DNA from: Ridgeia piscesae
Taxonomy: Eukaryota; Annelida; Polychaeta; Sabellida; Siboglinidae
NCBI GenBank assembly: GCA_025642075.2
Contig: JAODUO010001643.1
Span: forward strand, 23,501-87,500
Direction of reading: 5' to 3'
Length of the DNA stretch: 64,000 nucleotides
In this document: piece by piece, positions 42 to 54,800 of the stretch
How the letters are laid out: the number at the start of each line of letters is the position of its first letter
Position numbering within the stretch: position 1 is the first letter of the stretch
Made by a program: the position numbers and the translations under genes
Notes under the pieces: generated by a model
The model's input: only the letters and a program-made list of their open reading frames with translations
Told to the model about the DNA's origin: nothing
The model's database searches: none

Positions 42-3000
42 CTTGTGCTTTCCGAGGTACTCATCATCGAGTGTCCACGGAGCGTCTGGCACGACCTCGT
101 CGACGTAGCGACAGTGCCTCACAGCCTCATATCTCTCCTTCTCATTCATCACTGTACGTCCCTTCATGGAGCGCGTCAGTGCGTCGTTTACAACTGTAAC
201 ACAGCCAGTGCAGCATTTACAACTGTAACACAGCCAGTGCACCATTTACAACTGTAACACATCCAGTGCACCATTTACAACTGTAACACAGCCAGTGCAC
301 CATTTACAACTGTAACACATCCAGTGCACCATTTACAACTGTAACACAGCCAGTGCACCATTTACAACTGTAACACAGCCAGTGCACCATTTACAACTGT
401 AACACAGCCAGTGCACCATTTACAACTGTAACACAGCCAGTACACCATTTACAACTGTAACACAAGTAACTGTATCGATTGCAGCCCCCGCGACATAATC
501 CACACCAGGACACATACATTACAAACAGATGTATTTAACATCAGAAATAAATGTTGTGCAAACCATAAATAATCATTAGTATGCCGATGTGTGTAGGAAG
601 AGTTGTATATTTAATATAACACTTCAAATCTGTGAGTAGAATCCTGATTGTTACCGTGGCTCAAACGGTAGACGCATTTATTAGGAGTGTCTGCTTTTAA
701 CATTGGTTCAAAACCGTCACGAAGCCATACCTTTTTTTGTTATTTTCACAAAATAATAATAACAAATAAAATCAAAGCAATGACTATTGCTTGTATTTGT
801 TTTATTGTTGTAGTAATTATTTATTTGCGACGAAAATTATAATATTTTAATTATTTAACGTTAAACAATAAAAACACAAGCAGTACATCATTTACTGATT
901 AATATGATTCAGTTTATAATTATTTTTGATGAAAATATAAACAAAAGTGTATAAAAATATTTATGATTTTGTGTCAAGTTCAAATGGGTGTCCTTTAGAT
1001 TGCAAAACTGAACGCACCGTAACAAACGCGTTTACCAACTGAGCTACAGAGACCAGCAGGATTCTGGTTACCGGACTTAAAGTGTTACGTTAAATTTACA
1101 ACTCCTCCTTCATACATCAACATATAACTTGTAGTGAGTGATATTAATGGATTGTATAATATCTCAAGTTAAATGTTTATAATGTATAGGTCCTTGCACG
1201 GATGATCTCCTGCAGGCTGCAATCGATACAATTGCTACGAAAATGAGCTGAACCCGAAACTCAATCAGGGCTCAGGCCTCTGTGAAACCTCTGGCTTCAA
1301 TTAAACATTTTTGAAATTTTTTTATTTGTGTGGAACCATAGGATAACTATTTGTTCCTGTGACAACTAGTGTTTGTATTATACTAGAATATCACACAATT
1401 TTTTAGGTTAAGCGTCCTTTTTCTATTCCTTTTAATACCGGTACATGTCATTTACAGGTGTCACAGATACACAGTGCATATTTTACATCTTCAACACAAA
1501 TGCGTACATCTGACAGGTGACTCCAGCCAACTGTAGATCGACTTCACAGTTCAGGTAGAACACAAAGTAAACAACCAATCAGGATGAATTATTGCCTTAA
1601 CTGCCTGATAAGTTGAATATATGTGTCCCAAGGTCTGGCCATAAATCTATACAAGACCAACACAAACAAGTCTGGTTTTAAGACAACCCGGCAGTAATCA
1701 CACTCATTTTATGACATTCAATTGTTGTCTTGTGACTAGTTTATTGTTTGTCCCGTCCTCACCGATACTGTCGTTGTGTAAACAACCTATTTTTAGTTTA
1801 GGTGATGTTTGAATGGAACCGTTATCACTCCAAATGGTGCAAAACTCTAGCTTTCAATCATGAAATAGTCACAAAAAGTATTGTTCCTAGGAAATAGCTA
1901 TGCTGCACAACAATTTTGACAATATATATTTCTGATGTCTTTATAGACCTGAAAATATGCTCGAAAAACCTAGCAATGTTAAAATATCCTCCAAAATAAA
2001 ACTATTCCGCATTGAACAACCTCCCTAAGAATAGCATCTGCAGCTTTACTTAGCAATTCGATGGTCCTAGCAATTTGATGGGAAATGAACATTTTAGACG
2101 GGTAAAAAGTTGACTGGACAGGTAAATGGATGGGTGGAAATGTAATGGAGAAAAAAACTTCACTGTGTCCACACTTAGACAGCACTACGTTTTAAGAAAT
2201 CCACTTATTTTGGAGCATAATTTGTGAAACGTACAACATTTTGACCCATCAGCTGAGTCATGGTCACATGTGATGGGTCGAAACATCATACGTTTCACTA
2301 ATTATGCTCCAAAGTAAGTGAATTTCTTACAAAATACCCTAATCTTGGATATTCCATATCGTTAGACTGGACTGTCTGCTCACGCTCAATCACATCTACT
2401 GGCACAGTTTGGACTGGTCAAAGGCCAGGCATAGTTTGGACTGGTCAAAGGCCAGGTACCATCTAAAGACTTACTTTAGTGTAACGGTCATGTACAACAC
2501 ACTGCTTATGACAATTGTGTAAGTTGTTTATTTATTCTATAATGAACTTAATATATAAGTGCAGACGACCTACCACCAATGATGAGATAGAGACTAGAGA
2601 CATACCACAAATGATGAGATAGAGACTAGAGACATACCACAAATGATGAGATAGAGATTAGAGACTTACCACCAAAGATGAGACAGAGACTAGAGACGTA
2701 CCACCAATGACGAGACAGAGACTAGAGAATATCACCAATGATGAGACAGAGACTAGAGACTTACCACCAATGATGAGACAGAGACTAGAGACTTACCACC
2801 AATGACGAGACAGAGACGTATCACCAATGATGAGACATAGACTTACCACCAATGATGAGACAGAGACTAGAGACTTACCACCAATGATGAGGTAGACATT
2901 GGGGAACATGTCCTTGGCCTGCATCAGTTGTCTGGCGTGACCGGAGTGAAACATGTCGTAGATGCCGTCCGCGTATATCCTCACAGGCCGCCCCACTGGA

Positions 3001-51800: not shown

Positions 51801-54800
51801 CTGTTGTGTGTTTTAGGCCCCCTTGTTGTGTGTGTGTTTTAGGCCCCCTTGTGTGTGTTTTAGGTCCCCCTGTTGTGTGTGTTTTAGGCCCCCTTGTTGT
51901 GTGTTTTTTAGGTCCCCTTGTTGTGTGTGTGTTTTAGGTCCCCCTGTTGTGTGTGTTTTAGGATGGGTCCAACCTGCCAGCGAGTCAGCGCGCCTACCAT
52001 CCAGATGAGCTCACCAAGAGGACAGATCTCAAGATTGGTAAGAGCTTTAGTTGTGCCGTCAGGGTAAAGGAGTTAAAATTGGCAAAATTTTGATTTATCA
52101 AACATGAACAGAAACGTCACCCTGATACATCTGGATAAATGTAAGTGCGACAGTGGTACACCAGCATTGCCTGGCACTGTTGTCCGCAGCAGTGTGGTAT
52201 AAACATCTATAATAATCTATTATGTCGATTTGTTTCGTCGTGATCACTGGTGAGGAGCACTCACCGCCCAATCACACGTAACTCTTTCAGGTGGGATGAT
52301 ATCAACTTACGTGTTACTTTAAGCTGTGTAGTCGCTAGAGCACGTGATTCTGTGTTCAAATCTACCTGCTGTCATTTCAAATTTTGGCGGGTTCATTTAT
52401 TCCATATTATTCCAGATTTTTTGTATGAATGAGTGTACGAGGTAATAAACAGTTTGGTATTTGGGGTAGATATTTGTGTAGTAAATGCAGCATGGCTGAA
52501 AGTTTCACAGAAGTCGAAAACGGTGTTCATTTGAACAGATCTGCCCTGGGATGAAGTGTGACGTGTTTTGAGCTGTCCAGAAACTGGGTACTGTGCTATA
52601 TAAGAACTCTGCTTTGTAATGAAGTGTATTTACCTCTCAAGAAACGTTCCTGTTTCTTCGTAAAATTCTGGCCATCTTCATTAGACTGAATTTATGGTAG
52701 TGTCCCGAAACCTACATCAAATAAAAAAAGTAAAGGTAAGTTCTTATATAACGCAGTATCCTGTCCTCAAATTTTTACACTTTACTTTCCTGACAGACCT
52801 GTTCAATCAAACACCATCTCAATGTCTCTGGGAAGCATCCAGCCATATGCTACAATTAATGCGCGATGACTGCGCATACACATATCCACCACTGTCTATA
52901 GCCAGGTATTCATACAGCTGAGTGAACTGGAGCAATGTAGAGTGAAAAAACTTACCCGAGGTTTTAACACCAAAGCACAGGATTCGAACCCGGGTTCTCT
53001 TAGTCGAGAGTCCGAAACTCTACCCCTGAGCCACTGCGTTCTACATTAACTGTCTGTCATGTTGCCTGAATCGTTGTTTCTTACGTGTTTAGACACACTG
53101 TACTACTTGGCTCATCAGCTGCACCCGGTCGTGTCTCGACTCTGTGATGTCATTGATGGCACAGACGCCGCTCGCATCGCAGAATGTCTCGGTAAGGTTT
53201 ACTTGACGGAGACAGGTCTCCAACAACCAAAAAGTGAATCATCTCATTGAACTTACAGCTCCAATCTCTTATTGTTTGTTCCCTGTAAAGATGACTGTAA
53301 AAGTATTAGATGCTTTTGTAGGTAAATGTGTAGATATAAGATAATGATATAAAATTATATCAGCATGACCAAATCCAAGAAATTTTCATACATTGTATGG
53401 TTGATGGTTATATGGTAGCATAATGCACTTGACGTAGAGAAATTTATGATTATGAGCATGAGAACTGTATGAATAGATACCGTAATGGCTACATTTTTGG
53501 ACAGCAACAAAATTAACAAAATATTTTTTTTACATGTTTTGTACACTTCTGTAATATTTTTCCCCCTGTAGAATCAAAAAATGATGTTTAAAAAGCTTGT
53601 TGATACCAGGGTAAGAGAGCCTGTAAGTGTGTCAAGTGTCTCAGTAATGCAATCATTATAGTAGATGTGAACGCCCCCTTCATCTGTGCAGGCTCTCTCT
53701 GCCGGGGTGCAGTGGGAGGGTAAGGTTGATGACATAACAGAGACACATCTACCCGATGGGGACAGGTAGAAATATCAGTTGACAAATGGTGGGTGGATTG
53801 GTAGAACATGGAGGATCAAAGTCATTAAAAATCATGAATATACCTTGAAAGTGGGTGTAGATGGGTGTCACACGTGTCTTTGTAGTTTATTTCAGGTAAT
53901 AAATCACATCTCCGTTGATTGAGTTAACATCCACCAATAACAGTGTGACTGGCAAAGGTTTTATCCTGCATAAAGCCGAGGTTGTTGACGTTGTCCCATT
54001 GTGAGTTGTCCCTCCCCAGGCCTTGACCCGTCCGGCTACCGACAGTCAGCGGAGAGAAGGGAGGAGGAGGAAGAGAAGGCTCTACTGGGAGCACGACTGT
54101 CGGAGGAGGAGCGGTACAAGGACTGTGATCGCCTCCACTTCCCCTGTCCCCAGTGTGGTCGTGACATCATCTTTGACAACATCTCGTCACAACTGGTCTG
54201 TCCGTTTCTCATTCACTCATTGTGGCACTTACTCATTGTGAGATTTGTTCATTGTGAGACTCTTTCACATTATGTTTATTATGGGGGATTTGCTCATTAT
54301 GAAATGTGCACGTTGTGAGACTTGCTCAGTGAGATATTGACTCATTATGAGATATTTGCTCATTGTGAAACTTGTACGGTGAGGCATATACCCATGACAC
54401 ATTTGCTCATTGTGAAACTAGTTCATTATGAGACATTTGCTCATTTTGAGACTTGTTCGGTGAGACATTTACTCATGACACATTTGCTCATTGTGAGACT
54501 TGTTCATTATGAGACATTTGCTCATTTTGAGACTTGTTCGGTGAGACATTTACTCTTGACACATTTGCTCATTGTGAGACATGTTCATTAGGAGCCATTT
54601 GCTCATTATGAGACTTATTCATTATTGTCCTTCTAAGACTTGACTTTGTTCATTATGGTAATTCAGAGACTACCCGGTAGGTCAAAAGTCGGGGTGCGGC
54701 TTTAATTAGGGGTGCGGCTAGTAATACAGGATTTACGGTAGTTCATTGTGGTACTTGCTCATTAGATATGTTTGTTATGAAACCCAGCGGCCATGTTAAA

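Follow-up and report, generated by a model that had tools for sequence, protein, structure and literature searches.

Why should minisatellites in two conserved genes end where exons meet introns? In the window analysed here, a 64,000-nucleotide stretch of Ridgeia piscesae DNA, a minisatellite, built of 23-32 bp units, has its exon-proximal end at each of five junctions of PCYT1 and POLA1 (Table 1). Arrays were called with TRF and junctions were placed by spliced protein alignment; together these confirmed the proposal of the initial annotation that the arrays coincide with true splice junctions of both kinds, donor and acceptor. Both strands are affected, PCYT1 lying on the minus and POLA1 on the plus strand. 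The joined POLA1 protein matches PDB POLA1 (1469 bits over 1079 aa) and the joined PCYT1 protein matches PCYT1A (323 bits), and a search of the contig for PDK, one human neighbour, gave no match.

Table 1. Junction arrays and adjoining exons of PCYT1 and POLA1 in the window (a slash marks the junction; exon numbers follow the initial annotation)
Feature	Position	Strand	Unit and copies	Junction	Exon number	Source
PCYT1 donor array	2567..2891	-	32 bp, ~10 copies	2879/2878		TRF
PCYT1 exon upstream of donor array	2879..2995	-			3	protein alignment
PCYT1 acceptor array	187..464	-	29 bp, 9.6 copies	194/193		TRF
PCYT1 exon downstream of acceptor array	42..193	-			4	protein alignment
POLA1 26-bp acceptor array	23706..29400	+	26 bp, 219 copies	ends at acceptor 29398/29399		TRF
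POLA1 exon after 26-bp array	29399..29568	+			9	spliced protein alignment
POLA1 23-bp donor array	50876..51361	+	23 bp, degenerate	50887/50888, at array start		TRF
POLA1 exon before 23-bp donor array	50756..50887	+			31	protein alignment
(TG)n tract between donor and acceptor arrays of one POLA1 intron	51461..51662	+				TRF
POLA1 24-bp acceptor array	51654..51962	+	24 bp (TTTTAG/G)	51961/51962, at array end		TRF
POLA1 exon after 24-bp acceptor array	51962..52037	+			32	protein alignment

Exon content is clear in three of the five window arrays (7-13 nt). The PCYT1 donor array repeats the last 13 exon bases and the donor into the intron, the PCYT1 acceptor array extends 7 nt into the exon as called by TRF, and the 23-bp repeats of POLA1 combine the VICE codons at the end of the exon with the donor, with 12 nt of exon inside an array that TRF split into pieces and whose junction piece scores only 72. 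Both POLA1 acceptor arrays hold 1-2 nt of exon (2 nt in the 26-bp array, 1 nt in the 24-bp array, which abuts the junction), so that two of the five merely reach the junction. The 26-bp array accounts for 5,693 of the 5,909 bases of its intron; the acceptor at its end lies in the poorly conserved N-terminus, where placement rests mainly on frame continuity.

Our sample, taken from one assembly, comprised 12 gene models with 149 introns, namely PCYT1 and POLA1 from the window and ten further gene models. Junction arrays numbered 17 in these introns (nine donors and eight acceptors) and recurred in 10 of the 12 gene models, the genuine site being the exon-proximal copy by protein alignment, with the terminal copies checked for coding continuity. 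Most of them contain exon sequence: 14 of the 42 strong arrays enter an exon by at least 5 nt, as do all 12 junction arrays of the ten further gene models. The predicted POLA1 exon 20501-20600, where no array of score at least 60 is listed, was omitted from the intron list, and one intron is therefore counted instead of two; POLA1 22083-22329 was treated as a single exon. Doubtful first and last mini-exons of POLA1, the first PCYT1 piece (9889-9908) and one CCT1 intron spanning unfetched sequence were dropped. Three candidates went unused, a CCT-family locus that matched no subunit clearly (C580) and the single-exon matches C107 and C271. For the sushi gene, the alignment guide for junctions was derived from the sequence itself, one-codon exons judged spurious were deleted manually and the intron at 848-3820 was excluded. 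Five poorly supported CCT introns were retained, one of which holds a counted junction array (CCT8).

Analysis of the individual repeat copies revealed that the splice signal is kept almost throughout. GT or AG is present in 461 of 477 non-terminal aligned copies from 15 arrays (copies gapped at the site are uncounted) and in 244 of 259 aligned copies when the 26-bp POLA1 array is set aside. That array keeps AG in 217 of its 218 other aligned copies, and the 23-bp POLA1 donor array keeps GT in 17 of 21.

We consider it likely that these arrays are 'mirages', in which a tandem duplication spanning a junction was tolerated and then expanded and homogenised. Slippage or unequal exchange would tandemly duplicate a short stretch across the junction, and the duplicate would land in the intron at no cost, because the spliceosome would still use the exon-proximal copy. 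The array could then grow and homogenise like any minisatellite, presumably under neutrality, and would come to carry dozens to hundreds of intact splice sites that probably remain unspliced.

Structures of this kind have been described, and the initial annotation was wrong to state that no such system was known: amphioxus mirages (PMC3087553, PMC3902484) and human exon-intron-boundary repeats (PMC2812944) are, in the portions of these papers drawn on here, the same or close. The amphioxus cases, in Adh3, the globins BflGb6 and BflGb9, TnC and PGBD5, are presented there as minisatellite-like tandem duplications across the intron-exon boundary, at donors and acceptors, with AG/GT in many but not all copies (PMC3087553, PMC3902484), and with apparently normal splicing, variable length and homogenisation (PMC3087553). 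As in amphioxus, the units here span the exon-intron boundary, 5′ and 3′ boundaries are both affected and the splice signals recur in many copies. The present host, however, is an annelid, of another phylum than the cephalochordates, a difference of taxon and not of structure; copy number reaches 219, and most examined gene models are affected. The tRNA order of the mitochondrial contig and the arrangement nad1-I-K-nad3-S-nad2-cox1-N, with names other than cox1 assigned by eye, fit what we take to be the annelid ground plan. A further likeness is the minisatellite of the human 6-16 gene (gene name IFI6), which, going by the title of Turri et al. 1995, reportedly provides multiple splice donor sites.

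In the sections cited of PMC2812944, internal tandem repeats of human segmental duplications are minisatellites with units averaging 30 bp, lie in some cases at exon-intron boundaries, and can give recent paralogs new introns or alternative transcripts, whereas here conserved genes are involved and the original junction is in place. In the AGGT model, as given in the cited part of PMC4974935, introns are gained when a genomic segment that includes splice signals is duplicated in tandem, and the Rogers model, as cited in PMC3087553, likewise invokes tandem duplication. Our arrays have such a duplication in common with the AGGT model, but existing introns are lengthened and no new intron is shown. 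For C. elegans minisatellites near alternative splicing, the cited part of PMC4039745 does not place the repeats on splice sites. We take the arrays for a known kind of structure in a probable new taxon, frequent in this sample; they extend to an annelid a structure described in amphioxus and in some human paralogs.

How often junction arrays occur, and how often neutrality predicts them, can both be estimated from this small sample. Under uniform seeding over present introns, 16 of the 42 strong arrays lie at junctions against 6.4 expected (P = 7e-5), and for the ten further gene models the count is 12 among 29 strong arrays in introns, against 5.1 (P = 0.0006). The window genes alone exceed chance weakly, with 4 of 13 arrays of score at least 100 against 1.31 expected (P = 0.03) and 5 of 25 against 2.13 at a score of at least 50 (P = 0.053). 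Given present intron lengths, the excess is clear once the further genes are included, and to this extent, across the 12 gene models sampled, the earlier impression that junction arrays are commoner than uniform placement allows was borne out. We recomputed uniform seeding with collapsed introns capped at 500, 300 or 200 bp. The excess persists at 500 bp (9.2 of 42 expected, P = 0.0075), and the expectation rises to 12.4 at 300 bp (P = 0.13) and 16.6 at 200 bp (P = 0.63), so that significance is lost if introns measured about 200-300 bp at seeding.

Clustering of array edges within 30 bp of junctions remains despite this caveat, the local edge test depending little on total intron length. Over all genes, 13 edges fall in [-30,0) against 6 in [30,100) (P = 0.0006; ten further genes, P = 0.0017), and the contrast is weaker against all 13 edges in the first 100 intronic bases, [0,100) (P = 0.0025 and 0.011, respectively). 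Edge density per junction-kb is 0.34 in [-60,-30), 1.45 in [-30,0), 0.78 in [0,30) and 0.20-0.29 from 30 to 800 bp.

This peak and the local test favour an alternative that we regard as possible but rather unlikely, in which mutational hot spots of tandem duplication extend ~30 bp to either side of exon-intron junctions, for instance where breaks accompany transcription or splicing or at the edges of nucleosomes. Against it stand the results at the 300- and 200-bp caps and the weaker comparison with the first 100 intronic bases; its mechanism is conjecture, and in interior arrays the sense strand does not resemble splice sites significantly better than the antisense strand does (p = 0.32 for donors, 0.19 for acceptors, n = 26). 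The same comparison led us to reject interior arrays as decayed mirages. The claim that junctions in this lineage are true birth hot spots of minisatellites (~30 bp), through a process linked to transcription, to splicing or to chromatin edges, seems to us rather unlikely too; if it holds, many introns are being rebuilt from their own splice-site copies. A process seeding duplication at splice sites, as the initial annotation suggested, may exist, but the data do not require it, since significance of the excess is lost with introns of about 200-300 bp at seeding. For the mirage reading, the junction excess, the edge clustering and the two window arrays that barely enter an exon are points against; unless seeding took place in short introns, excess and clustering imply that tolerance by itself may not be the whole cause.

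Selection on the additional splice-site copies, which might be retained either for redundancy or to allow alternative splicing, had also been raised and appears improbable. The near-universal GT/AG would fit it, as would the 456 of 496 inner sites that score above the 10th percentile of sampled genuine sites and the frame-keeping 48-bp units of the two sushi-gene arrays. However, the idea gained no support, because conservation at the splice dinucleotide does not exceed that of the rest of the unit (mean percentile 0.545, p = 0.42, n = 15). Nor is there a signal of in-frame bias: the unit length is divisible by three in 9 of the 17 junction arrays and in 11 of the 26 interior arrays, and 8 of the 17 would thus shift the frame. 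A genuine site stronger than the inner copies was likewise rejected (mean difference 0.76, p = 0.12). Scored with matrices built from sampled introns, 345 of 496 inner copies in the 17 arrays equal or exceed the real site; measured site strength therefore cannot explain which copy is used. Junction arrays are frequent enough in the sampled genes to make the choice among near-identical splice-site copies testable, and the POLA1 acceptor that is the last of ~219 nearly identical ones offers a natural test.

Chance placement or mis-called junctions would suit the weak excess of the window alone, the two arrays with 1-2 nt of exon, and the counted CCT8 array, whose donor at 7670 borders an intron with a poorly aligned far side. 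Such an explanation is nevertheless very improbable, given the excess and consistent exon entry in the ten further gene models and the validated POLA1 and PCYT1 protein models.

The units do not form a single family, in keeping with their initial description as unrelated: over 135 unit pairs the mean local score was 12.1, and base shuffles gave 10.9. The four best pairs, at 20-24, exceed the 99th percentile of the shuffles (19.2); each joins two acceptors and, by eye, owes its likeness to shared T/TG tracts before AG. Genome searches returned, for a piece of the 26-bp POLA1 array, its own array and one weak 78% match and, for the PCYT1 donor array, five partial matches of 69-76%; very common words are skipped in these searches, so rarity of the array sequences is not proven. 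A mobile introner-like element inserting at or carrying splice sites would account for recurrence at many junctions of several genes, but is barely credible, and a retrotransposon or introner origin is disfavoured by sequence, since the units are not one family, most hold the gene's own exon end, and the genome searches with the two arrays gave few matches and not the related sequence at many sites that marks introners and mobile intron elements.

At the CCT6 acceptor, a weak 18-bp repeat (score 69) stops 3 bp before the junction; it is the 18th touching array at a score of at least 50 and stands outside the list of 17.

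The junctions that the initial annotation had placed on tandem arrays, five in PCYT1 and POLA1, were borne out by the coincidence of TRF arrays with spliced alignment. The window gene models were built by spliced alignment with human guide sequences, and the joined proteins matched PDB chains of DNA polymerase alpha (POLA1; 1469 bits, 1079 residues) and choline-phosphate cytidylyltransferase A (PCYT1; 323 bits). TRF returned 71 rows at score ≥40 in the window. A single 2.7-kb PCYT1 intron holds both the donor and the acceptor array of that gene. The 26-bp array fills 5,693 of the 5,909 bases of the 5.9-kb POLA1 intron and terminates at the acceptor, while the 1,074-bp POLA1 intron (886 bases inside TRF rows) is made up mostly of degenerate repeats of its own donor, a (TG)n tract and repeats of its acceptor. 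Exon overlap is just 1–2 nt for two of the five arrays, both at POLA1 acceptors, and could be explained by chance. Within the 26-bp array, 161 of 216 anchored units terminate in TTTTACAGAG and run on into GTAATT or GTGATT, which places an acceptor immediately 5′ of a donor, in the manner of recursive splice sites.

Coordinates of junction arrays and other features (window positions unless a contig is named)
Feature	Position	Strand	Content
PCYT1 acceptor array	187-464	-	TTACAG + start of next exon, TTGTAAA; ~10 repeats preceding that exon
PCYT1 donor array	2567-2891	-	exon end CTCATCATTGGTG + GTAAGT; ~10 repeats into intron
Non-LTR retrotransposon-like ORFs	11388-14743	+	interrupted
POLA1 acceptor array	23706-29400	+	219 copies of 26-bp unit
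POLA1 donor array	50876-51361	+	
POLA1 acceptor array	51654-51962	+	
Homeodomain	60108-62023	-	apparently two exons
CCT2 array	C306, near 367444		46 bp x 84
Sushi-domain gene, two donor arrays	C1643:119463-121338		48-bp units

Junction arrays are real and recur in most sampled genes of this genome. Counts were compared with a null in which the seed falls uniformly over the intron, arrays are collapsed to one unit and exon overlap of up to one unit is allowed; a junction was scored as touched if an array lay within 3 bp. Across the 41 window introns, 5 of 22 arrays (period ≥10, score ≥60) touched a junction in an early version of the test, against 1.87 expected, and the final version gave 4 of 13 against 1.31 at score ≥100 (P = 0.03) and 5 of 25 against 2.13 at score ≥50 (P = 0.053). 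Picked after the fact, the excess within the window alone is suggestive, and further genes were therefore sampled: the eight genes of the CCT chaperonin, picked by a single family search blind to their arrays; six introns within 5.9 kb of clathrin heavy chain; and, on the window's contig, a sushi-domain gene, which was not blind because two arrays were already visible in an ORF listing before modelling. The 108 introns of these genes hold 29 arrays of score ≥100; 12 of them touch a junction, where 5.10 would be expected (P = 0.0006), and each of the 12 extends at least 5 nt into the exon. An earlier run restricted to the CCT genes found 9 of 24 against an expected 4.43 (P = 0.0098). The claim that chance placement is unlikely thus holds in the further genes, is only suggestive in the window and depends on intron length.

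For all 149 introns, the counts were 16 of 42 against 6.41 at score ≥100 (P = 7e-5) and 18 of 74 against 8.43 at score ≥50 (P = 0.0004). Ten of the 12 gene models carry at least one junction array at score ≥100, the exceptions being CCT1 and CCT4. The two sushi-gene arrays lie at paralogous exons and hence are non-independent. With the low-scoring POLA1 donor array included, 17 junction arrays comprise nine donors and eight acceptors; the 18th touching array at score ≥50, a weak repeat at a CCT6 acceptor, stands outside this set.

A duplication inside an exon would usually harm the protein, one inside an intron would be cost-free, and one across a junction would also be cost-free provided that the spliceosome keeps to the copy nearest the exon. 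Expansion and homogenisation of the array would then follow by slippage and unequal exchange. Because the unit includes part of the exon, it shows that the gene's own junction was the seed wherever the overhang is at least 7 nt. Inner copies are presumably unused, and exon definition is a plausible reason for use of the last among ~219 similar POLA1 acceptors.

Since the expectation depends on intron length when arrays were seeded, collapsed introns were also capped at 500, 300 and 200 bp. Expected counts rose to 9.2, 12.4 and 16.6 of 42 against 16 observed in all genes (P = 0.0075, 0.13 and 0.63), and to 7.0, 9.3 and 12.3 of 29 against 12 in the further genes (P = 0.021, 0.17 and 0.62). Special seeding would thus not be needed to explain the counts if ancestral introns were short. 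Comparing array edges locally is less sensitive to intron length: in all genes, 13 edges fall within 30 bp of the junction on its exon side, 7 within the first 30 bp of intron and 6 within the 70 bp that follow (exon side versus next 70 bp, P = 0.0006; versus the whole first 100 bp, P = 0.0025), and the further genes gave 9, 6 and 3 (P = 0.0017 and 0.011). One of the 7 belongs to the CCT2 array, which starts 6 bp into the intron, right behind the donor.

Selection on splice-site copies, raised as a possibility by the initial annotation, finds no support. Of the 477 non-terminal copies that align over the site in 15 arrays, 461 retain GT or AG; the 26-bp array accounts for 218 copies, 217 of them intact, and without it the figure is 244 of 259. 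This pair is no better conserved than other neighbouring unit pairs (mean percentile 0.545, Wilcoxon p = 0.42). When the 496 inner copies of 17 arrays were scored with matrices built from the sampled introns, these very sites included, 345 equalled or exceeded the real site and 456 lay above the genuine sites' 10th percentile. Among junction arrays, 9 of 17 have a unit length divisible by three, as do 11 of 26 interior arrays. The copies thus look homogenised rather than selected. The paralogous sushi-gene donor arrays keep the reading frame, so the gene could gain inserted 16-residue blocks if inner donors were used.

A mobile-element source is disfavoured by units that, much as first proposed, do not form one family (135 pairs; mean score 12.1 versus 10.9 in base shuffles), by a genome search with a 399-bp piece of the POLA1 26-bp array, in which 20 matches fall within that array, the piece itself among them, and a single weak one (78%) outside it, and by units containing at least 7 nt of the gene's own exon in 15 of 17 listed arrays. 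The best four unit pairs (20–24, where shuffles reach 19.2 at the 99th percentile) each join two acceptor arrays. For the PCYT1 donor array, five partial matches (69–76%) occur elsewhere in the genome. The genome searches, run with the 26-bp POLA1 and PCYT1 donor arrays only, skip very common words, so rarity of the array sequences is unproven.

The title of a 1995 study of an interferon-induced transcript mentions a minisatellite with multiple splice donors. Passages of published studies describe amphioxus mirages, arrays whose unit spans an exon-intron junction (PMC3087553), also in PGBD5 and troponin C (PMC3902484), and human tandem repeats at exon-intron boundaries able to form novel introns (PMC2812944); the junction array is therefore an already described kind of structure, contrary to the initial view. 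Passages on an earthworm describe minisatellite arrays within an intron and mention no placement on splice sites (PMC12783039). Our search of the open-licence literature found no report of mirages in annelids. What is new is that the host is probably an annelid, how often such arrays occur in this gene sample and a neutral expectation for that frequency.

The genome comprises 628 Mb in 4,875 contigs. On the 15.6-kb mitochondrial contig, the tRNA order called by ARAGORN is Q, W, R, H, F, E, P, T, C, M, V, L, A, S, I, K, S, two doubtful Ser, N, one unassigned and Y; cox1 was located by its Pfam model and the remaining protein genes were recognised by eye. The order nad1-I-K-nad3-S-nad2-cox1-N matches what we take to be the ground plan of annelids, and an annelid rather than amphioxus is therefore the probable host. 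The contig also has reading-frame breaks in cox1 and apparently in nad2, as well as an AT-rich simple repeat separating the tRNA-Arg and tRNA-His calls, which suggests residual indel errors in the assembly.

Beside POLA1 and PCYT1 lies a homeodomain whose parts score 28.5 and 22.0 bits against Pfam, the second slightly below cut-off. In human, PCYT1B, POLA1 and ARX are neighbours, so the gene here may be ARX-like and its microsynteny conserved. The non-LTR-like ORFs lie between the models of PCYT1 and POLA1, and the first of them carries PHD and endonuclease domains.
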